Positions 26,656 to 37,072 of a stretch of DNA of 44,939 bases are shown piece by piece; within the stretch, counting starts at the first letter, position 1; each line of letters starts with the position of its first letter. Source of the DNA: Planktothrix serta PCC 8927 (GTDB lineage: Bacteria > Cyanobacteriota > Cyanobacteriia > Cyanobacteriales > Microcoleaceae); the NCBI RefSeq assembly GCF_900010725.2, contig NZ_LR734883.1:286981-331919 (forward strand), written 5' to 3'. A program made the position numbers and the translations under genes. Below the pieces are notes generated by a model that saw only the letters and a list, made by a program, of their open reading frames with translations, made no database searches and was not told the DNA's origin.

Positions 26656-26946
26656 ATGATTGTACATCGCTTAGAACAATATACAATAAAACATCCTCAA
26701 GAAGTTTTAATTGTTAAAATTGAAATCAATGGAGAACCTGATGAAATTGCTATTTTTAAAGGATTTTCCAGTTCCTTAATGCGTCCTACCGCTTTTGATC
26801 CTGATATTCCTGTTCTTCCTGATACCGCTAAAATTATTGAAATTGATCGTCTATTCAGTCCTTATAATCCCACCGAACCCCGTTATATTCAACAGGGATT
26901 AACCTGGGACATGATGCAATTGTTATTGGTCGAAACAGAAAATTGA
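26656..26946 (+). CDS. Small conserved cyanobacterial protein (possibly DUF7734-like)
   Basis: A 96-aa soluble protein starting at ATG 26656 (a TTG at 26650 is the alternative). It contains EVLIVKIEINGEPDEIAIFK, then SSSLMRPTAFDPDIPVLP and YIQQGLTWDMMQLLL. I remember this pattern from short proteins shared by cyanobacteria and chloroplasts, but the family name is uncertain. The function is unknown. The next gene starts 14 bp after its stop codon, so the two are probably co-transcribed. Confidence 0.65.
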   Translation: MIVHRLEQYTIKHPQEVLIVKIEINGEPDEIAIFKGFSSSLMRPTAFDPDIPVLPDTAKIIEIDRLFSPYNPTEPRYIQQGLTWDMMQLLLVETEN

Positions 26947-26960
26947 CATTTAAAAAAATC

Positions 26961-27542
26961 ATGGAAACTCAAACTTATCATGCGCTGAAAGAATGGAATA
27001 TTGCGATTCAAGCCTTACAACAGGGTGAAACTATTATGTTATTGAGAAAAGGCGGAATTCGAGAACAAGGGGGAAAATTTAAGGTTGATCAGGAAAAAAT
27101 TCTACTTTATCCGACCTTTGAACATCAACAATCCAGTTTATTAAAACCCGAATATGCTAATCTTGTGCAACCTGTTCCTTCCGGTTGGCATTCTGAAACT
27201 GTTAAAATTAGTAGTTTTGCTGAAATTACTGATATTTTATCATGGAATAATTCTCAACAGGAATCTTTAATCCATTCTTTAAAAAACTTTCATATTTGGA
27301 ATGAAATTTTTGTGCGCGATCGCCTTCAATTTAAACCCCAACAACCCCTTTATATTTTATTACTGAGAACCTATAAACTCTCTCAAGTTTATAACATTCC
27401 TTATCATCCTAGTTATGGAGGATGTCGGTCTTGGATTAAGTTACAAGAACCAATTTCATTAGAAAATAGGATTCCTGTGTTAACGCAAGAAGACTACGAT
27501 CAACAAGTATCAACAATTGCTCAAATTCTTCAATCCTCGTAG
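26961..27542 (+). CDS. DUF1802-family protein
   Basis: A 193-aa soluble protein. Features I associate with DUF1802 are ALKEWNIAIQALQQGETIML near the N-terminus, LLRKGGIREQGGKF, LYPTFEHQ, a central variable part, then YILLLRTYKLSQVYNIPYHP and YGGCRSWIKLQEP. The biochemical role is unknown. ATG 26961 is preferred over a TTG at 26943, which overlaps the preceding stop codon. The last codons and stop (TAG at 27540) lie inside a perfect 23-bp inverted repeat that may act as the transcript end. Confidence 0.75.
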   Translation: METQTYHALKEWNIAIQALQQGETIMLLRKGGIREQGGKFKVDQEKILLYPTFEHQQSSLLKPEYANLVQPVPSGWHSETVKISSFAEITDILSWNNSQQESLIHSLKNFHIWNEIFVRDRLQFKPQQPLYILLLRTYKLSQVYNIPYHPSYGGCRSWIKLQEPISLENRIPVLTQEDYDQQVSTIAQILQSS

Positions 27543-27595
27543 TAAGCCCTTCAGGGCTTTATTCTTCTTAAGAAAGCCCTGAAGGGCTTACTACG
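27538..27595. repeat. Perfect 23-bp inverted repeat of the CGTAGTAAGCCCT family
   Basis: The arms 27538-27560 and 27573-27595 are exact complements with a 12-base loop. Each arm is itself partly palindromic (AAGCCCTTCAGGGCTT). A partial third arm follows at about 27606-27620. Related copies lie at 33626-33646 and 38412-38465. The structure overlaps the stop codon of the DUF1802 gene and could form a very stable RNA stem ending that transcript. The remainder of the gap to 27827 shows only a possible promoter. Confidence 0.8.
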
Positions 27596-27732
27596 GTAGA
27601 TGGCTCTGAAGGGCTTACGATTAAATCTGTAACTCCTGGTTGCAATGCAAAGTGTTCTTGATTTTTGTCCCAAGCTCAATTGTAAAGAAAGTTATATCTT
27701 ATCCTTACAGCTATAGTCTGCTCACTTTGAGC

Positions 27733-27738
27733 TATAAT
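27733..27738 (+). promoter_or_regulatory. Possible -10 element of the dynamin-like operon
   Basis: A perfect TATAAT lies 90 bp upstream of the first GTPase gene, in the non-coding gap. No good -35 hexamer lies 16-18 bp upstream, so this is a weak call. Confidence 0.3.
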
Positions 27739-27827
27739 TGAAGAGTCGGGCTGTGATTCCTCGATGAGTTGTGGCTCAAATATGTGATTTAAAATACATA
27801 TTTACTATCACCAGCAGGATTGCATAC

Positions 27828-30200
27828 ATGAGTAAACAATTAGACAAAATTTTTGATGAAGTAGAATTCAAAGCTCAACAGCTTGGTAAATACTGGAATA
27901 ATTTTGCTACAGAAATTTCTGAACATTTACCAGATTCATATCAGCCAGAAATGCAAGAACTCTCTATTAAATTAGAGGAAGCTTTAAATAATTTAATTAA
28001 TAAACTTCGTTATCCGACTTTGACTCTGGCAACAACAGGAACCACCAGTAGCGGTAAAAGCACTTTGGTAAATTTGTTATGTGGTGCAGAAATTGTTCCC
28101 GTAGCCGTCAGTGAAATGAGTGCAGGAGCCGTTACTATTGAATATAACCCAGAAAAGTCTTTAATTATCCATGAAACACCGGGCGCATTGTGGGAATGTG
28201 GAGAATGGAAAGGGATTACTGAAGATCAAATTTATCAGCGCTTATATCAAGTGATGATCAGTTATATTGATAATAGAGAAAAACAACCGAATTTAGCTTG
28301 TCCACAATCTACAATTTTTTACCCTTTTCGGCTTTTAAAAGAATCTCAACTACAACTACCACAAGGAACAAGAGTTAAAATTCTGGATTTACCCGGTTTG
28401 TCTTATGTGGGTGATCAAGAGAACGCCAAAGTTATTAAACAGTGCCGAGAGGCATTGTGCATAGTAACATACAATAGTGCAGAAACCGATGCACAGAAAG
28501 TAAAAAGCTTACTGCAAGAAGTTGTACAGCAGGTAAAAGATTTAGGAGGTTCCCCTGCGCGGATGTTGTTTATTTTGAATCGTATTGATGTTTTTCGAGC
28601 CGATAAAGAATGGCCAGAAACAGAAAATCGCTTTATTAAAAATACTATCTACAGTATTAAAAATGAGTTGACTGATCACTTAACAGAATATACACAATAT
28701 ATTGAGAATTTACAGGTTGTCAAACTAAGTACATGGCCTGCTTTACTAGCCCTTCAGATCCAAAATAATGATGATGTTTTCAGTGCTGAAGCGTGTAGAA
28801 TAGCCAAGAATTTTCCCAGATTAATTGAAGATGTATTAGATGACTTGCCCGGTAATGTACAAAAATGGTCTAGGCATGATCGAATCAGAGTTTCTGAAGC
28901 ATTATGGCAAAAATCTTATGCAGAGGAGTTTCAACAGAACTTAAAGGAACATATTACTCAACACTTTCCCCAGTTAGTAATACCGCAAGCTATAGAACAG
29001 TTTAATGTAGCTGCTGGAAATGCTGTAGCAGAGTGGGCTACCCAAACAACAACAGCTATTCTTAATAGTTCGGAAAAAGAATACAAACAGGAATGTGAAA
29101 ATATATTATATATTAGGTTAGCGATTGAGCAATTTCTGGAAGAGAACGATAAAAATCTGAGAAAGCCATTTGAAGAGATAGATACGGAAATCAAAAAAAT
29201 TTTTGCAGGTCAATCAAAAAATGATGCTTTGTACCAACTTCAAATCACCATTTCAAAAATTAATGAAAAAAAACCCTATAATGAATTAGGAAATAAATTA
29301 AGGCCTCTTTTTGGATGGCGGCAAGAATTAAAAAAAGGGATAAACCAAGTTTTAGAAGCAGTAGGAACGTCTTTAGATAGTGGAAGAGTAAACTTAGACA
29401 ATCCTAACCTAAAAAGAGCAAGCTTTTCCCATATCAAGCCCCTAGAAAATAACTTGAAACGGCTAATAGGTTTAAAATATACAGCTTCTATTGCTAAAAA
29501 TGGTGAAACAATACAAGCTAAAACAGATGATGATAAAAAGAAACTTTCCCAACTCAATCAAGAGTTAAATGAATTATCTATCCATCTTAATCATGTTATG
29601 GAGGATGTATTAAACAAAATTTCTAGTCAAGAAATAGAGAGAATTTATGAGGCAGTTGTTGAGCTTTTGAATTGCCATTTATCCCATTTAGAAAAAGGTG
29701 TTAATGATATTGCACCCAACATAATAATCAGGTTTCCTGAGTCTCAGCTAAACCAAGTTAAAAGAGAACTTTTATTTAGGTTAAACTTTGAATCTGGGTT
29801 TTCAATTAAAAAAGAAACTTGGAAGGAAGAAACTAGAAGTTTTTTGCACTGGTTGTGGTTGATCCCAAAATCCGAAACACGCTCTAGTGATAATGCTACA
29901 ATTCCCAGCACTGAACAGCTTCTTAAAAACTGGAATGATCAGCTACAACTAGCTGAACCAGAGATCATTAAAGAAATGATCAGTTGGTTGCTCGAACAAA
30001 TTGATTATCTCAACAAAGATGTCAAGAAAATTCAAAATGATATTTTTGACCGTTATCAGACTAGACTAGATAAAGCTCACCAAGAAATTACTTTAGATTA
30101 TGAAAAGCAAAAAAACGTTTGGCAACCGATGGAACGCAAAGCCCAAGGATTAGCAGAGGAATTTACTATTTTAGGAAAACTATTGAGAAAGGAGGATTAA
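27828..30200 (+). CDS. Dynamin-like large GTPase (first of a pair)
   Basis: 790 aa from ATG 27828; an upstream TTG start at 27771 would add 19 residues that look unrelated to the family. The GTPase domain has the P-loop GTTSSGKST (71-79), a G2 Thr near 103 (SAGAVTI), G3 DLPG (187-190) and G4 NRID (251-254). A long helical region follows, ending in a charged coiled coil (about 740-780), as in bacterial dynamin-like proteins that remodel membranes. One moderately hydrophobic stretch (SFLHWLWLIP, near 685) might touch a membrane; there is no clear transmembrane helix. It is the first gene of a tight operon with a small membrane protein (6 bp) and a second GTPase. The function is unknown; membrane fission, fusion or phage defence are possibilities known for relatives. 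Confidence 0.8.
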   Translation: MSKQLDKIFDEVEFKAQQLGKYWNNFATEISEHLPDSYQPEMQELSIKLEEALNNLINKLRYPTLTLATTGTTSSGKSTLVNLLCGAEIVPVAVSEMSAGAVTIEYNPEKSLIIHETPGALWECGEWKGITEDQIYQRLYQVMISYIDNREKQPNLACPQSTIFYPFRLLKESQLQLPQGTRVKILDLPGLSYVGDQENAKVIKQCREALCIVTYNSAETDAQKVKSLLQEVVQQVKDLGGSPARMLFILNRIDVFRADKEWPETENRFIKNTIYSIKNELTDHLTEYTQYIENLQVVKLSTWPALLALQIQNNDDVFSAEACRIAKNFPRLIEDVLDDLPGNVQKWSRHDRIRVSEALWQKSYAEEFQQNLKEHITQHFPQLVIPQAIEQFNVAAGNAVAEWATQTTTAILNSSEKEYKQECENILYIRLAIEQFLEENDKNLRKPFEEIDTEIKKIFAGQSKNDALYQLQITISKINEKKPYNELGNKLRPLFGWRQELKKGINQVLEAVGTSLDSGRVNLDNPNLKRASFSHIKPLENNLKRLIGLKYTASIAKNGETIQAKTDDDKKKLSQLNQELNELSIHLNHVMEDVLNKISSQEIERIYEAVVELLNCHLSHLEKGVNDIAPNIIIRFPESQLNQVKRELLFRLNFESGFSIKKETWKEETRSFLHWLWLIPKSETRSSDNATIPSTEQLLKNWNDQLQLAEPEIIKEMISWLLEQIDYLNKDVKKIQNDIFDRYQTRLDKAHQEITLDYEKQKNVWQPMERKAQGLAEEFTILGKLLRKED

Positions 30201-30206
30201 ATTAAA

Positions 30207-31028
30207 GTGGCAAATAATAAGTTAGAAACACGGTATCAAAAGGTTTTTGATCTAGTGTATCCTCAGATCAAAGATCAGAAAAATGGCGTTTTATACAAAG
30301 TAATACATATCTTACTTGAGGCAAGAGAATCAGAGGCATCGGAAATATGTAATGATCTTGATATAAAAGACAATGCTTCTTTAGATGATGATGAAAATGT
30401 GGTTGTTTATTTAATAGACAAACCGAATGCTATACCCTTACAATCATCACACGATAATTGGTTGAAAGAAAAATTCCGTGTTTTTATGAATCCTAACTTA
30501 GGAAAAATTGCTTGGATTGTGATTATAGCCTGCTTCCTTGTTGGAGTCCCTGTCTGTATCCAATACATAAATAAACGTAAACAAAAGCTAACAGGTAATA
30601 CAACAAAGCTGCCACCTAATTCTCCGTCTTCACAAGAGCTTCCACCAATTACTGCTGCTTTATGTCTTGTTGTTCAAGCCTCTGTATTTATTGATTTAAA
30701 GAATAAGCATCCAAATGCTTTGGAAGATAACCGCCTAAGCTGCTATGATGTCAAAATGCTCATAGATTATTCCTCACATTTTTTATGTATAGGACTTGAA
30801 GATGTTGCATCAATAGAGGAGCATTTAGAAATAACAAGAGAAGAAATAACAAATGATAGCAACCAAGAAGTTTATATCCGAATTCACATTGATAAAGGCC
30901 AAAATCTAATAGGAAAACAAGTTCCTTACATCCTCAAAAGAGACTTACCCTCTGATGGACAACGAATTATTCAACGGTATAATTGTCTAAAAAATCTGTC
31001 TGGATTAGAACACTTTAACCATATTTAA
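30207..31028 (+). CDS. Single-pass membrane protein between two dynamin-like GTPases
   Basis: I do not recognise this 273-aa protein. Residues 1-95 are charged and helical (TRYQKVFDLVYPQ; VLYKVIHILLEARESEASEI). One membrane helix lies at about 101-121 (IAWIVIIACFLVGVPVCIQY). A Pro/Ser linker (129-147) leads to a C-terminal domain of about 125 residues (DLKNKHPNALEDNRLSCYDV; EVYIRIHIDKGQNLIGKQVP). Translation starts at GTG 30207, after a GGAGG site only 6 bp past the first GTPase's stop. The second GTPase starts 11 bp after its own stop. This spacing suggests a stable stoichiometric partner that could anchor one or both GTPases to a membrane. Confidence 0.7.
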   Translation: MANNKLETRYQKVFDLVYPQIKDQKNGVLYKVIHILLEARESEASEICNDLDIKDNASLDDDENVVVYLIDKPNAIPLQSSHDNWLKEKFRVFMNPNLGKIAWIVIIACFLVGVPVCIQYINKRKQKLTGNTTKLPPNSPSSQELPPITAALCLVVQASVFIDLKNKHPNALEDNRLSCYDVKMLIDYSSHFLCIGLEDVASIEEHLEITREEITNDSNQEVYIRIHIDKGQNLIGKQVPYILKRDLPSDGQRIIQRYNCLKNLSGLEHFNHI

Positions 31029-31039
31029 GGAGTCTAAAA

Positions 31040-33364
31040 ATGGATTGGAAAACAAAATCTTCTTACTATGAAGCACGTCTTACTGACGCTCTAAACGTGC
31101 AACGACACGCGGTAAATTTAGCTAATTTACCCCAGGCACAAGTTCCGACTCGATTAAAAGACATACTTTTAGAAGAAGAAGAACCAACTCGTCGCCAACT
31201 TGAAAGACTCAAAAAACGTGAGTTTCGTATTGCTGTTGTGGGACTAGAAAAAGCTGGAAAAAGCACCTTTATTAATGCTTGGTTAGAATGTGATTTACTT
31301 CCTGCAAAAGCAGGTAGATGTACCTTTACAACGACTCAAATTTATTCCGTTGAAAATGAGTCTGAACAAAGTTTAGAAGTTCAAGCAAGAACCGAAGAAG
31401 AGTTTATCAATTTACTCAAGGAACTTGAAAAAATAGGAGCGAAAGAAGACCTAAAAACTATAAAAGCAAACGAGATAACTTTGCAACAGGTCAGAAGCGA
31501 ACCTAAGCGTGTTTTTCCATTCACGAGATTGGAAGATATTAGAGAGCCACTGAAGAAATATGTAGCAGATGAAAAGTATGCTCATGCTGTTTTAGAAGCT
31601 AGACTTTATACTAACAAACTCGCCCAAGCAGAAGGGATTGTTTTTTATGATGTTCCCGGTTTAGATTCAGGTTTAGCAAAGCACGTTGATGAAGCCCAAG
31701 CAATGCTATCTGATTGTGATGCTGTAATATTGGTACAACGTTTTACTAGCCTTCGAGAAAAAGAGCTAGAAATAATAAAATTTACGGAACTTGGTGATAA
31801 AAACGTTACCGTTGCTGATAAGCTTTTTGTATTTTTAAGTCGGATTGATTCATTGGCAAGTCCAGAGGCGTTAAAAACCCATATTGAAGAAGCATCCCAA
31901 GATTGGTTAAGACGCGCCAAGCTTCCCCCTGAGCGTATTGTCTCAGGTTCAGCCGGAGCTTACCTAAGCTTGAATAATTTAGCAGGAGAACAGACTAAGT
32001 TAGAGATTGGGGATGCTAGTGATATTAAAGCTAAATTGCAGAAATTAACTGGAATTACTGATGAAGAAACTCTTCAGACAAAAGAAACGGGTATTCCAGT
32101 TATTAAAGATAAAATATTTAACTATATTAACACAGAACGGGTTGATATTTTAACGAAAAGATGCGAAGCTTCTATCAATAAAATTATGAGCAGTTCTGAA
32201 GAAATTTATCGGATAGTTAGTAAAAATTATCCTGAAAATCCTGAAGAAGCAAAGCTTTTTGAAGAAAATAATCAGCTAGTCTTATTTACAGAGTGGTGGG
32301 ATCAAAAATGGGAAACTATTAAAGCTGATTTACAAAAATACTATCAAGATTCTATTGCTAATGAATCTTTTGAAAGTTCCGACTCTAAATCATTGGCTCA
32401 AATAGAAAAGTTTAGACAGCGATATTTACAAATCGTTGATGTCGAAATGAAAAAACTTCGAGAAGAAACATTTAAAAAGAAAGATACGATTTTTCTGGCT
32501 AATGCTTTTCCAGTCTTTGCTCAAATGAAAGCTAATTTTGCTTGGCGTGAGGATTTGTATAGTGATATTACCAAACTTCTTTCTTCAATTGCTCATCAAC
32601 TTGCTGTAGAACTTAAAGATGAAGCCTTAGAATTAGTTGAATACATGACCCATCTATTATGGGGAAGTAATCAAGTAAAATCCAGACTCATTCAAAATTC
32701 AGAGGAATATTTTTTAGAAAAACTAGAGAATAGCTTAAGTGTTTTATTTTTACGTTTTGCTCGTCCTGTTGCAGAAGCACTGATTCGTGGCCCTCTTAAG
32801 AGTGATATTCGCCATAAAATTATCAAAAGTTTAGGAGTAGATATTGAAATTATTGATAACTACTATACGGGTGAAGAAATTGCATTTAAAGTCCTTAAAA
32901 AATATGCAAAACATGGTTCTGATTTGCTATTTAATCCTGAACTTCGGCAACAAGTATTAGGAGTTAAAGAAGTAGCAACGCAAATCACAGAGGTAGTAAC
33001 ACAAATAGTTGTAGATGTTTCTAATGAGCTAGAATTTCCACAAGAAAAAGAAGAAGCTGAAGCGGTAGTTGTTGAGGTGAAACATGATATTAATGCGCTT
33101 GAGGAATATTTACGCTATGCAATTTTTGATGCAGCAGGTTTTGAGTCCTACTGTATTCAAGAATTAAAAGGTTTAATTGATAGTTTTAGAGATAAAAAAG
33201 GCACTTGGAATGGGGTTGCTATCAATGAATGGAGGCAAGAAAATTCACTGCTATTTGCTGAAATTCCTGATAACTTAAAGTCACAAGAATCAAATTTAGA
33301 AGTTAGTGAACGATTAAGACAATTATCGATTGCCTTAAAAAGAAATCCTTCACTAGAGGTATAA
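31040..33364 (+). CDS. Dynamin-like large GTPase (second of a pair)
   Basis: A 774-aa protein. The GTPase domain has the P-loop GLEKAGKST (68-76), the G2 segment TFTTT (95-99), G3 DVPG (204-207) and G4 SRID (267-270). A long helical stalk follows, with a charged helix near the C-terminus. It is clearly different from the first GTPase of the operon, so the two probably form a heteromeric pair, as in other bacterial tandem dynamins, rather than a recent duplication. No transmembrane helix is evident; membrane recruitment may depend on the small membrane protein encoded upstream. A GGAG-like ribosome site precedes the ATG. Eleos (LeoA/LeoBC) and DynA-type proteins are the nearest functional comparisons, from general knowledge only. 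Confidence 0.8.
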   Translation: MDWKTKSSYYEARLTDALNVQRHAVNLANLPQAQVPTRLKDILLEEEEPTRRQLERLKKREFRIAVVGLEKAGKSTFINAWLECDLLPAKAGRCTFTTTQIYSVENESEQSLEVQARTEEEFINLLKELEKIGAKEDLKTIKANEITLQQVRSEPKRVFPFTRLEDIREPLKKYVADEKYAHAVLEARLYTNKLAQAEGIVFYDVPGLDSGLAKHVDEAQAMLSDCDAVILVQRFTSLREKELEIIKFTELGDKNVTVADKLFVFLSRIDSLASPEALKTHIEEASQDWLRRAKLPPERIVSGSAGAYLSLNNLAGEQTKLEIGDASDIKAKLQKLTGITDEETLQTKETGIPVIKDKIFNYINTERVDILTKRCEASINKIMSSSEEIYRIVSKNYPENPEEAKLFEENNQLVLFTEWWDQKWETIKADLQKYYQDSIANESFESSDSKSLAQIEKFRQRYLQIVDVEMKKLREETFKKKDTIFLANAFPVFAQMKANFAWREDLYSDITKLLSSIAHQLAVELKDEALELVEYMTHLLWGSNQVKSRLIQNSEEYFLEKLENSLSVLFLRFARPVAEALIRGPLKSDIRHKIIKSLGVDIEIIDNYYTGEEIAFKVLKKYAKHGSDLLFNPELRQQVLGVKEVATQITEVVTQIVVDVSNELEFPQEKEEAEAVVVEVKHDINALEEYLRYAIFDAAGFESYCIQELKGLIDSFRDKKGTWNGVAINEWRQENSLLFAEIPDNLKSQESNLEVSERLRQLSIALKRNPSLEV

Positions 33365-33405
33365 TCATTAATACATGATATCGGGTTTAAGGTATGGGGA
33401 ATTCA

Positions 33406-33461
33406 GGATGATTAAATTCAATACCTTCGCCACAACTCATATCCCCTTACCTTAATCATCC
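33406..33461 (+). terminator. Possible terminator of the dynamin-like operon
   Basis: A 10-bp perfect inverted repeat with a long (36-base) loop lies 42 bp after the second GTPase's stop and is followed by a T-rich stretch. The long loop makes it a weak candidate. Confidence 0.25.
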
Positions 33462-33625
33462 TTCTTTCTTTGTGTCTTTGTTTCTTTGTGGTTGCGAGTA
33501 CAGAAACTCTCTTAAAGATCGACACGACAATATGAGCGAGGGTATTGTTAAAGAAACCTGGTTTTTGGGGTGTATCTCACGCGATCGCGCACTGCTTAGG
33601 TGCGGGAAAAATTATGACGGGAGAT

Positions 33626-33646
33626 AGCCCTGAAGGGCTTACTACG
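33626..33646. repeat. CGTAGTAAGCCCT-family repeat, single-arm copy
   Basis: This 21-bp sequence is the same as 20-plus bases of the right arm of the inverted repeat at 27573-27595, apart from its first bases. It is a solitary arm in non-coding DNA. Confidence 0.6.
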
Positions 33647-34257
33647 AGGGGAATTTTGACTTGAGTTAATATACTTTCAAATTTAACTTGTGACTGACTG
33701 TATAAAAACATACCACAAGTTAGCGATTCTGATAAAAAATCGGATCAGGGTTGATAATAATCATTATGGTTGTTTCAGATTATTCAAACTCTTGAAGAAT
33801 AAAATAGATTGATCAACGATTGTAGTTTTAATAACTCTAAACCGTAGAATTTATACGATAGTAAACCCATAAAATGGTTTATTGTACCTAAACTGTTCTG
33901 CTAGAATTGACCCCTAGCATTGTCGGTTTTTCAATGCTATCTTAGTTGCAGTCCTAAATCTAATTTGACGTGAGGAGGTGAGACGATTCAGGAAAATGGA
34001 ACTTTATCCAGTCAAACAAGTATAAGAGAACAATTTTTTAAATTGCAAACTCATCTAAAACTATTGCATCAGGAAAGCAGACTCTAAATTTATTGAAAAA
34101 TCATCTCTTTGAGGTTTGATTTTCTTAAAAATTTTAGAATTCTGGAATTCTACCCAAATTTCATCGCTTTAACATCCTTGTTTTTGAATTAATTTCTGAT
34201 TTAACTTGTTTGACTTTTGTTCCTGATGTTAATTGTATCGCATCTACCCCTATTAAC

Positions 34258-35325
34258 ATGAAAAATTCTAGATCACCCTCCAGAAACGATACATGGATTG
34301 GGAAAATGATGGATCAATTTCCTACTTTTATTATCGGATTTTTTACTGGATCTCTCATTACTGTTTATGGAACTCTGACTCAGATGGATTTCTTAAGCTA
34401 TCTGAATACTGACCAAAATATCCTAAAATTTTATCAAGAATTATTGGGATTTTCTACAGATTCTCTGGAGCAGAATAGACAATATCGAGGATATATTGAA
34501 AAGTTGAATATCAGTGTAAATCCCAATACATTGAATATTTCTGTTCTCCCAAACTCTATTTGTGAAGCTGCTATTTTAGAAGGAGATCGGGTAAAAATTT
34601 TGCCTTCTGTTGAGGTGATTGGCAAACAGAATTCTGATCAGAATACAGAATTTAATTTGTTTAAACAACGGATTAGCAAAATTATTAGTGATGGATTTGG
34701 ATATATTGAAGTTGTCAATCCTGAAAATGAATTAGCCTTGATTGAAATTAATTTACTGAATGAAGAACAAAATTGTGTGAGAAAACCCAAATATATTCAA
34801 GAATTAGAAAAGCTCCTAGAACAAAAAAAATGGAAAGATGCTGATCAAAAAACGAATCAAGTTTTACTTAAAATCACGAATCGAGAAAGCGTTGGCTATC
34901 TCAATGAAGATGCGATTAAAAAAATGTCTTGTCCCTACTTAAGAACGATTGATCAATTATGGAAAAAATACTCAGGTGGCTTGTTTGGGTTTAGCGTTCA
35001 AAAACGAATTTTTCTGGAAACAGAAAATCAAATAGAAGATGATGCTTTAACTCGATATGATCCCAATGCTTATATTCATTTTGCTGACTTAGTACGATGG
35101 ATTGAATCGAGTAAAAATGGAAAGGAAAAATGGAAAACCTACGATGAAATGACTTTTTCTCTGGAAGCACCGGAAGGTCATCTTCCCCGTCTGAATCAAC
35201 TTGCAAAAGGCATGAAAATGAAATCTAATTATCAGCTTGTTTCTCCAAACAATCTCCCCTTATCTTCTCAAGAAATCCAAGCCAGAACTTTATTTTTTGC
35301 ACGGGTTGATACTTGCAAACTGTAG
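34258..35325 (+). CDS. Membrane-anchored GUN4-like protein
   Basis: 355 aa from ATG 34258 (a TTG at 34210 would add 16 residues; neither has a clear ribosome site). One membrane segment lies at about 21-40 (FPTFIIGFFTGSLITVYGTL). A region of about 130 residues of unknown kind follows, then a GUN4 domain from about 178: LEKLLEQKKWKDADQKTNQV, then LRTIDQLWKKYSGGLFGFSV. True GUN4 binds porphyrins and stimulates Mg-chelatase. Many cyanobacteria carry extra GUN4-domain proteins fused to kinases, proteases or effector domains, where the tetrapyrrole role is unproven. With its membrane anchor and GTPase neighbours, this one is unlikely to be the housekeeping Gun4. Confidence 0.82.
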   Translation: MKNSRSPSRNDTWIGKMMDQFPTFIIGFFTGSLITVYGTLTQMDFLSYLNTDQNILKFYQELLGFSTDSLEQNRQYRGYIEKLNISVNPNTLNISVLPNSICEAAILEGDRVKILPSVEVIGKQNSDQNTEFNLFKQRISKIISDGFGYIEVVNPENELALIEINLLNEEQNCVRKPKYIQELEKLLEQKKWKDADQKTNQVLLKITNRESVGYLNEDAIKKMSCPYLRTIDQLWKKYSGGLFGFSVQKRIFLETENQIEDDALTRYDPNAYIHFADLVRWIESSKNGKEKWKTYDEMTFSLEAPEGHLPRLNQLAKGMKMKSNYQLVSPNNLPLSSQEIQARTLFFARVDTCKL

Positions 35326-35443: not shown

Positions 35444-37072
35444 ATGCCTATCTCCCGCTATTTACTATTAATTTTTGGGATTTGCCTAATTTTAGGGTTA
35501 ACAATTTGGCTGATTAGTTCCCTATCGGCTCTTTATACTCAGGTGATTTGGTCAGCTAATCCTATTTTAGCAAATTTGCTGCTTTTATTGTTAATTATAT
35601 TATTAGGATTAGCAATTTTTGCGTTTTTTTATTATACTCGATTCTTCCAGAATTCAGGAAAATCTCGTCAAAAACGGCGACCTTTAAAAATCCCCATCAA
35701 CAAAACAGAAGCGGCTGAAGAATCGATCAAATCTTTAAGACAACAAGTTACTCAAATTCAAGATGAAGTGGCTAAAAAAGCGTTATTAAGTCGTTCTCAA
35801 GATATCGCTTCTGAATTAGCCAAAGGTAATATTCAAGTGGTTATATTTGGCACAGGTTCGGCGGGAAAAACCTCTTTAGTTAATGCTTTAATGGGTCGAA
35901 TGGTAGGGAAAGTGAATGCACCGATGGGAACGACAGAAATAGGAGAAACCTATCATTTACAATTACAGGGAATTGAACGGGAAATTTTAATTACAGATAC
36001 CCCTGGAATTTTAGAAGCGGGGATGGGGGGATCTGAACGGGGAACATTAGCCCGTTCTTTAGCAACCGATGCTAATTTATTAATATTTGTTGTGGATAAT
36101 GATTTAAGACAATCGGAATATTACTCCTTACAAGCTTTAGTAGAAATTGGCAAGCGATCGCTAATTATTTTAAATAAAACGGATTTATATACAGAAGCCG
36201 ATCAAACGATGATTCTAGCTAAACTTCGAGATCGAGTCAAAACTTTTTTAGATCCCAGTGATGTGATTTCTGTAGCTGCAAATCCGCAATCAATTCGATT
36301 AGAAACAGGAGAAATTATCCAACCAGAACCGGATATTATGCCTTTAATTCGACGAATGGCAACAATTTTAAGAGCCGAAGGAGAAGAATTAATTGCTGAT
36401 AATATTTTACTACAATCCCAACGTTTAGGAGAAGAAGCACGACGATTAATTGATACCCAAAGAAAACGGGAAGCAGAAAAAATTGTTGAACGGTTTCAAT
36501 GGATAGGTGCGGGTGTAATTGCTGTCACTCCTTTACCTGTAATTGATTTAATTGCAACGGCGGCTGTTAATACCCAAATGGTAATCGAAATTGGTAAAAT
36601 ATATGGGTGTGAATTGAATGCAGATCGGGGTCGAGAATTAGCATTATCCTTAGCTAAAACTTTAGGGAGTTTAGGAGTAGTTAAAGGGGTGATTCAGTTA
36701 GTCTCAACGGCGTTACAATTAAATATTGCGACTTTGGTAGTTGGACGTGCGATTCAAGCGGTAAGTGCGGCTTATTTAACACGAATTGCGGGTAAAAGTT
36801 TTATTGAATATTTCCGCCATGATCAAGATTGGGGAGATGGAGGAATGACGGAAGTTGTCCAGCGACAATTTCAGTTAACTCGCCGGGATGAATTTGTGAA
36901 ACAATTTGTTCAAGATGCCTTTGCTAAAATTATTGAACCGCTTAATTTTAATTCTACTGAATTGGAGGAGGAAGAATTACCAATTGAAGCTGATATTAAA
37001 CCGTTATTAAAGCGTTATTTGGATGATTGGGAAGATCAGGATACTGTTGATCGGAGTGATTGGGAATCATGA
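35444..37072 (+). CDS. Membrane-anchored GTPase with DUF697-like C-terminus
   Basis: A 542-aa protein. Two membrane helices lie near the N-terminus (about 7-30 and 40-63). A basic linker and short coiled coil lead to an Era-like GTPase domain with P-loop GTGSAGKTS (136-144), G3 DTPG (185-188) and G4 NKTD (244-247). The C-terminal part (about 365-500) contains PVIDLIATAAVNTQMVIEIG and LALSLAKTLGSLGVVKGV, which look like the DUF697 domain commonly joined to such GTPases in cyanobacteria. The substrate and role are unknown; an envelope- or thylakoid-associated switch is likely. Its HIP1-containing leader and composition look like the core genome, unlike the dynamin-like pair upstream, so it is probably a separate, older gene. 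Confidence 0.82.
   Translation: MPISRYLLLIFGICLILGLTIWLISSLSALYTQVIWSANPILANLLLLLLIILLGLAIFAFFYYTRFFQNSGKSRQKRRPLKIPINKTEAAEESIKSLRQQVTQIQDEVAKKALLSRSQDIASELAKGNIQVVIFGTGSAGKTSLVNALMGRMVGKVNAPMGTTEIGETYHLQLQGIEREILITDTPGILEAGMGGSERGTLARSLATDANLLIFVVDNDLRQSEYYSLQALVEIGKRSLIILNKTDLYTEADQTMILAKLRDRVKTFLDPSDVISVAANPQSIRLETGEIIQPEPDIMPLIRRMATILRAEGEELIADNILLQSQRLGEEARRLIDTQRKREAEKIVERFQWIGAGVIAVTPLPVIDLIATAAVNTQMVIEIGKIYGCELNADRGRELALSLAKTLGSLGVVKGVIQLVSTALQLNIATLVVGRAIQAVSAAYLTRIAGKSFIEYFRHDQDWGDGGMTEVVQRQFQLTRRDEFVKQFVQDAFAKIIEPLNFNSTELEEEELPIEADIKPLLKRYLDDWEDQDTVDRSDWES

Follow-up and report, generated by a model that had tools for sequence, protein, structure and literature searches.

A dynamin cassette with an interposed membrane protein occupies a variable, defense-accepting slot in Planktothrix serta and is a candidate immune module

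Bacterial dynamins are often paired, and a few of them protect against phage, which raises the question of what anchors them and which agent does the damage. Stress roles also exist for these proteins, which counts against an immune reading of a new dynamin locus. Anti-phage dynamins in a tandem layout form the LeoA/LeoBC system, called Eleos and defined by LeoA plus LeoBC matched over their length. In the available text of PMC6104087, most bacterial dynamin-like proteins (DLPs) are reported to be paired in operons, and Bacillus subtilis DynA is a single protein made of two fused DLPs; the accessible part of PMC8844932 links DynA to membrane integrity and to phage tolerance at the population level. 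Excerpts of two further papers list dynamins among the defenses of bloom-forming cyanobacteria (PMC11265339) and describe dynamins on a mobile island as inactive against the phages tested there (PMC12595487). Cyanobacterial DLPs fall into six clades by sequence and neighbors (KGK, HSR1, chaperone, Tandem A, Tandem B, and unclassified), as set out in the available portion of PMC5827413. In the Juk system, according to the accessible part of PMC13282480, JukB acts on the early phage vesicle, where it forms tetrameric pores, and phospholipases are among the effectors.

The locus described here lies in a 44,939-nucleotide stretch of Planktothrix serta PCC 8927 (hereafter the window), from a genome of 6.27 Mb in 155 contigs. 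Three genes, A, B, and C, form a tight operon with intergenic gaps of 6 bp (A-B) and 11 bp (B-C) (Table 1), and the open reading frame calls agree with an earlier sequence-only reading in coordinates and gaps. The motifs reported in that reading, P-loops GTTSSGKST (A) and GLEKAGKST (C), DLPG/DVPG, and NRID/SRID, recur in the translations, and its assignment of two divergent dynamins is borne out by Dynamin_N scores of 44.0 bits for A and 60.4 bits for C (Pfam cut-off 27). A carries the G1, G3, and G4 motifs of a dynamin GTPase domain, and its P-loop, DLPG, and N..D residues are invariant or nearly so in an alignment of A relatives (alignment A2); the GTPase motif residues of C are likewise mostly invariant (alignment A6), its G4 motif being SRID, not NxxD. 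An alternative in-frame GTG start of A at 27771 would give a protein of 809 residues. The GC content of the three genes resembles that of adjacent genes, so that recent import is not indicated by composition. Since the order A-B-C is seen in several genera and in another phylum, the arrangement goes beyond chance.

Table 1. Positions of the cassette, its repeats, and the neighboring genes in the window
Feature	Position	Strand	Description
A	27828..30200	+	dynamin-like GTPase, 790 aa, ATG 27828; constant component of both cassette types
B	30207..31028	+	single-pass membrane protein, 273 aa, GTG 30207
C	31040..33364	+	second dynamin-like GTPase, 774 aa, ATG 31040; third slot
Insert	27597..33697	.	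6.1 kb, against 167 bp at the orthologous site of G002 (L220); blastn
Inverted pair of repeat GCCCTGAAGGGCTTACTACG	27538-27557, 27576-27595	-, +	exact copies, left insert edge
Third copy of GCCCTGAAGGGCTTACTACG	33627..33646	+	exact copy, right insert edge
DUF1802 gene	26943-27542		slot flank
GUN4-domain gene	34210-35325		outside cassette
DUF697 GTPase gene	35444-37072		slot flank; membrane GTPase, slr1306 family

Comparison with known systems (we use the PADLOC labels for Hma, Juk, LeoA/LeoBC, and PDC-M28) does not support membership of Eleos, a pair that the sequence-only reading named among phage-protective dynamins. The cassette shares dynamin-like GTPases with Eleos, and A scores against LeoBC (E = 1.9e-8), but the best stretch spans residues 3–84 of 790, up to the P-loop, and at E 0.1 none of the PADLOC models detects C. 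Because A has no full-length LeoA or LeoBC match and C has no match at that threshold, membership of Eleos was rejected. The cassette also differs from Eleos in its separate membrane protein between the GTPases and in a third gene that can be replaced by another, D (see below). The idea of a divergent Eleos with an added membrane subunit could further appeal to a LeoA match (E = 8e-11) in A′ of L103, an A homolog from the sister cassette described below; since the best stretches reach the P-loop only, C is without a PADLOC match, and the window's DUF697 GTPase, which lies outside the cassette, fits LeoA better (1.4e-11), we consider this idea very unlikely.

Among other described dynamins, the Tandem A and Tandem B DLPs (N. 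punctiforme BDLP) resemble the locus in being cyanobacterial DLP pairs, and the profile of C matches BDLP (2j68, E = 1.3e-4). The available portion of PMC5827413 mentions no small membrane gene between two DLPs for any of the six clades, a difference from the cassette in published description. B and C were modeled, and the predicted structure of C (pLDDT 82), with a helical neck/trunk after the G domain, resembles mitofusin, SynDLP, and BDLP. Its nearest fold is mitofusin 1, with SynDLP and the Campylobacter Cj-DLP1/2 pair among the best rows, although these proteins are only 12–16% identical to C in the aligned rows and no B-type partner is described for them in the text available from PMC6104087. 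DynA is alike as a dynamin that protects against phage (PMC8844932), but is a single protein, for which the accessible parts of PMC8844932 and PMC6104087 mention neither a B nor a swappable third subunit. Elsewhere in the genome of the window, contig C5 holds a second tandem dynamin-like pair (L048:9153-13762; 804 and 724 aa, 20 bp apart), beside which no A, B, or C hit was found.

The middle protein had been read from sequence as a one-helix membrane protein of no known family, and the scans agree: B has a single hydrophobic helix, no family in Pfam or PADLOC at E 0.1, and a sole NCBIfam match (E = 0.094) far below cut-off. Its architecture comprises a helical N-domain (residues 2–71), a transmembrane (TM) helix at about 100–120, and an α/β C-domain (150–261), and the predicted structure (pLDDT 86.6) contains a helix at 100–129. 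Across 56 aligned B rows, at least 60% of the region is retained for the C-domain in 56, for the TM region in 52, and for the N-domain in 46, leaving less than 60% of the N-domain in 10 rows and of the TM region in 4; in L126 the N-part of B is on a separate ORF. Given the incomplete N-domain or TM region of some rows, membrane anchoring by B may not be universal. The C-domain is predicted to lie on the cytosolic side from positive-inside counts, which favor this topology in 31 of 46 and oppose it in 9.

We traced the flanks of the chromosomal slot, a DUF1802 gene and the DUF697 GTPase gene, in ten members of the genus. DUF1802 is present in 9/10 and the DUF697 GTPase in 10/10 of these genomes, and both flanks are on one contig in six of the eight other genomes that have both. 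A-B-C occupies the slot in the genome of the window and in Planktothrix sp. PCC 11201 (G004), where it is split by contig ends, with A on one and B-C on another; B occurs in only these two of the ten. PCC 11201 supplies the closest named relative of A (93% identity), its proteins being 93.3% (A), 80.9% (B, 209 residues compared), and 96.1% (C) identical to those of the window. The orthologous site is empty in G002 and also in G003 (L221), where 101 bp stand against 6.15 kb (blastn), and no A, B, or C remnant was found at either site (best tblastn E 0.09). Different cargo fills the slot in other genomes: G008 (L224:6888-17439) has a type I-D CRISPR-Cas system (Cas3d, Cas10d, Cas7d, Cas5d, Cas6, Cas4, and Cas1) with a WYL regulator, and G001 (L222:3174-6339) has two genes matching PDC-M28A (2e-7), PDC-M28B (6.6e-41), and PDC-M28C (5.5e-28), the latter two matches in one protein. 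Two genes in G009 (L223:3136-6301) are sized as in G001 (154–155 and 895–896 aa) by a comparison of sizes only, and G006, which is without the cassette and without the GUN4 gene, carries a 263-aa gene with no family found. In G007 the two slot ends are on different contigs, and in G005 (73% complete) the left flank was not found.

The insert edges are marked by GCCCTGAAGGGCTTACTACG, a short palindromic repeat of 20 bases whose only exact copies in the window are the three in Table 1; similar repeats occur near the cargo edges in G008 and around cargo in congeners. These comparisons give direct evidence of a variable slot that accepts defense genes, alternating between A-B-C and known defense systems (type I-D CRISPR-Cas in G008, PDC-M28 in G001). 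Proximity to defense genes, a check proposed in the sequence-only reading, takes the form of an accessory slot shared with CRISPR-Cas and PDC-M28 across congeners, and it is from this context that we infer a defense role for A-B-C itself. At the right-hand side of the slot, the GUN4-domain gene adjoins the DUF697 membrane GTPase gene, and this pair is kept in G002, G003, G007, and G008.

In a sample of 386 cyanobacterial genomes evenly spread over the phylum, A was counted in 31 and C in 18 (both at E ≤ 1e-20) and B in 14, numbers that make the GTPases accessory and B their regular companion. A core housekeeping role, which the sequence-only reading gave as a refuting outcome beside a middle gene not conserved next to the GTPases, is at odds with these counts, and B is conserved beside the GTPases: it lies directly 5′ of C, with A before it, in 13/13 genomes whose C match begins at residue 1. 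Variants of the order include A-B-B-C with A divided between two contigs (G136), A-B-A-B-C with a short first A (G043), A in two ORFs with a C that ends after 373 aa (G179), and a broken A plus B without C (G015). The other five C-positive genomes (G151, G284, G292, G335, and G344) hold C remnants only, and in their gene maps neither A nor B is matched next to the fragment; a second remnant site is found in G043, and the remnants are mostly of the 3′ part. Two Microcystis genomes have a full-length C after A and B, whereas only fragments of C are present in a third, in which the closest three genes upstream are 92–99.9% identical; genus g19 has two genomes with an intact operon and two sites with matching upstream genes (72–96% identical) and C remnants. 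Remnants of C at conserved sites show repeated loss.

A profile of A, searched against 84,980 species genomes, found 114 relatives, the best 80 of which gave 79 loci. Complete A-B-C cassettes occur in Methylococcales (L162, L165, L166, L167, and L169), with C 44–46% identical to that of the window, and Nitrosomonas has A, B, and a short dynamin. The Nitrosomonas A homolog (L172:4984-9189) is 1401 aa long, with Dynamin_N from residue 648 and no Pfam family before it, and is followed by B and the 349-aa dynamin. An Anaerolineales metagenome-assembled genome (MAG) has A and B before a contig end, a Desulfovibrio MAG has A at a contig end, and in acetic acid bacteria the gene after A encodes a small membrane protein (in one case, in L176, a B-like one) or nothing recognizable. 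Two short Flavobacteriaceae-labeled contigs cluster with cyanobacterial A in the tree and may be mis-binned.

Weaker A matches revealed a second arrangement, in which A′ is followed by a B-like or small membrane protein (B′) and then by D. A′ mostly matches A at 31–42% identity over the GTPase region, and B′ was detected with an iterated B profile. D is about 370–460 aa long (585 in L119), and profile comparison showed no relation of it to C or A. Approximately its first 150 residues match PADLOC JukB in 5/5 common-type D proteins scanned (E 1.3e-11 to 5.9e-16); in L119:12564-14321 a class-3 lipase N-terminus (Lipase_3, E = 1.2e-31) replaces the JukB-like region, while the C-terminal half is shared with the other D proteins. 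D is present in 17 of the 386 genomes; in 14 of them it spans 270 profile positions or more, and each of these 14 also has A′ on the contig that carries D. In L101, the gene that follows the second B is of the TldD/PmbA type and was left out of the D count. No genome of the 386 is on both the C and D lists, and both cassette types occur under the same organism name for Microcoleus FACHB-DQ6 (A′ at a contig end), Phorm 6, and Anabaena UHCC 0204 (C missing). At L197:9953-12799 a 948-aa A homolog stands directly before D with no separate B called, possibly an A-B fusion.

Among the loci from the best 80 of the 114 relatives, 48 have an A no shorter than 690 aa and no less than 3.3 kb of sequence downstream, a set that partly overlaps the 386-genome sample. 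B is the next cassette gene in 43/48; the arrangements are A-B-C (32), A-B-D (9), A-D (1), A-B (1), A-B-short dynamin (1), A-membrane protein (2), and A alone (2), proportions that lean toward cassettes since the query profile was made from known cassettes. The gap 5′ of the third gene is 9–15 bp in 25/32 cases for C and 9–17 bp in 9/10 for D. In a tree of A, made by a quick method and with some long branches, a fully supported branch parts 16 D-partnered A proteins (plus two unassigned) from 37 C-partnered ones. The conserved trio of the sequence-only reading stands, whereas the replacement of C by a JukB-like or lipase D was not anticipated there. This replacement points to an effector encoded by the third gene, with B as the partner that stays with A; as C and D are without detectable similarity, equal roles would follow from position only. 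The likeness to Juk lies in D, which has the N-terminal region of JukB or, in one case, a lipase N-terminus. In PADLOC scans, A, B, and C matched neither JukA nor JukB, and one A′ and two B′ did not match JukA; Juk membership of A-B-C was rejected, there being no such match and the window holding C, not D.

The conjugative Nostoc plasmid pTCL26-01_C (MOBF, MPF_T) carries A′-B′-D, with an HmaC-like gene (1.8e-97) 560 bp after it and then an HmaB-like gene (9.3e-44). Searches of plasmid and phage records turned up no A-B-C, B being left out of the phage/viral-contig search. Beyond the genus, enrichment of defense genes around the cassette is weak: at E ≤ 1e-10, 97 PADLOC families (families, not genes) were matched for 130 of 312 near genes versus 61 for 130 of 203 far genes. 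Among nine hand-picked neighbors, PADLOC models matched six, and several of these matches are to generic helicases or ATPases. The plasmid copy, the membrane-damaging look of D, and the repeated decay that leaves mostly 3′ parts of C would also suit a selfish or addiction module, in which a toxic C or D is held by A/B and kept by its own toxicity. No antitoxin-like partner is seen, however, a plasmid location is found for one mapped copy only, and both the strong conservation of the GTPase motifs of A and C and the sharing of the slot with defense systems argue against such a module, which we regard as quite improbable.

A different non-immune explanation is a membrane-maintenance or stress module of niche use, in which B would anchor a heteromeric fusion or tethering machine, formed by A and C, for the repair or remodeling of plasma or thylakoid membranes. 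The mitofusin-like fold of C, with SynDLP and the Cj-DLP pair close behind, is in keeping with it, as are the prevalence of operon pairs among bacterial DLPs (in the available text of PMC6104087) and the support of membrane integrity by DynA; yet DynA is itself phage-protective at the population level (both in the accessible part of PMC8844932). Contrary to what maintenance suggests, the cassette is rare and patchy and decays to remnants, its slot is common to CRISPR-Cas and PDC-M28, and its third gene is exchanged for a JukB-like or lipase protein. We therefore consider a maintenance role unlikely.

The trio travels together and occupies a slot where sister strains keep defense genes, which makes it probably an undescribed anti-virus system. 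In our judgment A-B-C is rather likely to be an accessory, horizontally exchanged, membrane-acting immune cassette, the defense role being drawn from genomic context. More tentatively, Cyanobacteria and Pseudomonadota could share an undescribed immune system in which A and B are the constant core and the third slot swaps membrane-attacking effectors: the dynamin C, a class-3 lipase, or a pore protein resembling JukB. B would carry a new domain that couples dynamin GTPase activity to the effector.

In such an immune cassette, A would be the common regulatory GTPase that senses or integrates the infection signal, a role proposed because it is the constant GTPase of both cassettes. B would anchor A at the membrane through its TM helix and couple it to the third subunit. 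The trigger on infection would probably lie at the membrane, as a disturbance of it or as a phage product located there. A and C may then assemble at B in a GTP-driven step that leads C to remodel or break the membrane. Given the pores of JukB, the phospholipases of Juk, and D in the third slot, C would by position be the effector, and the JukB-like or lipase protein in the sister slot makes membrane damage a likelier output than repair. The target may be a phage-associated membrane or the infected cell itself (abortive infection).

A fixed dynamin and membrane adaptor with an alternating third gene would make the question of what anchors bacterial dynamins, and what does the damage, testable by a natural swap. 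If the immune reading is true, dynamins would act as both regulators and effectors in bacterial immunity, and a dynamin branch would be added to the defense of bloom-forming cyanobacterial genera.
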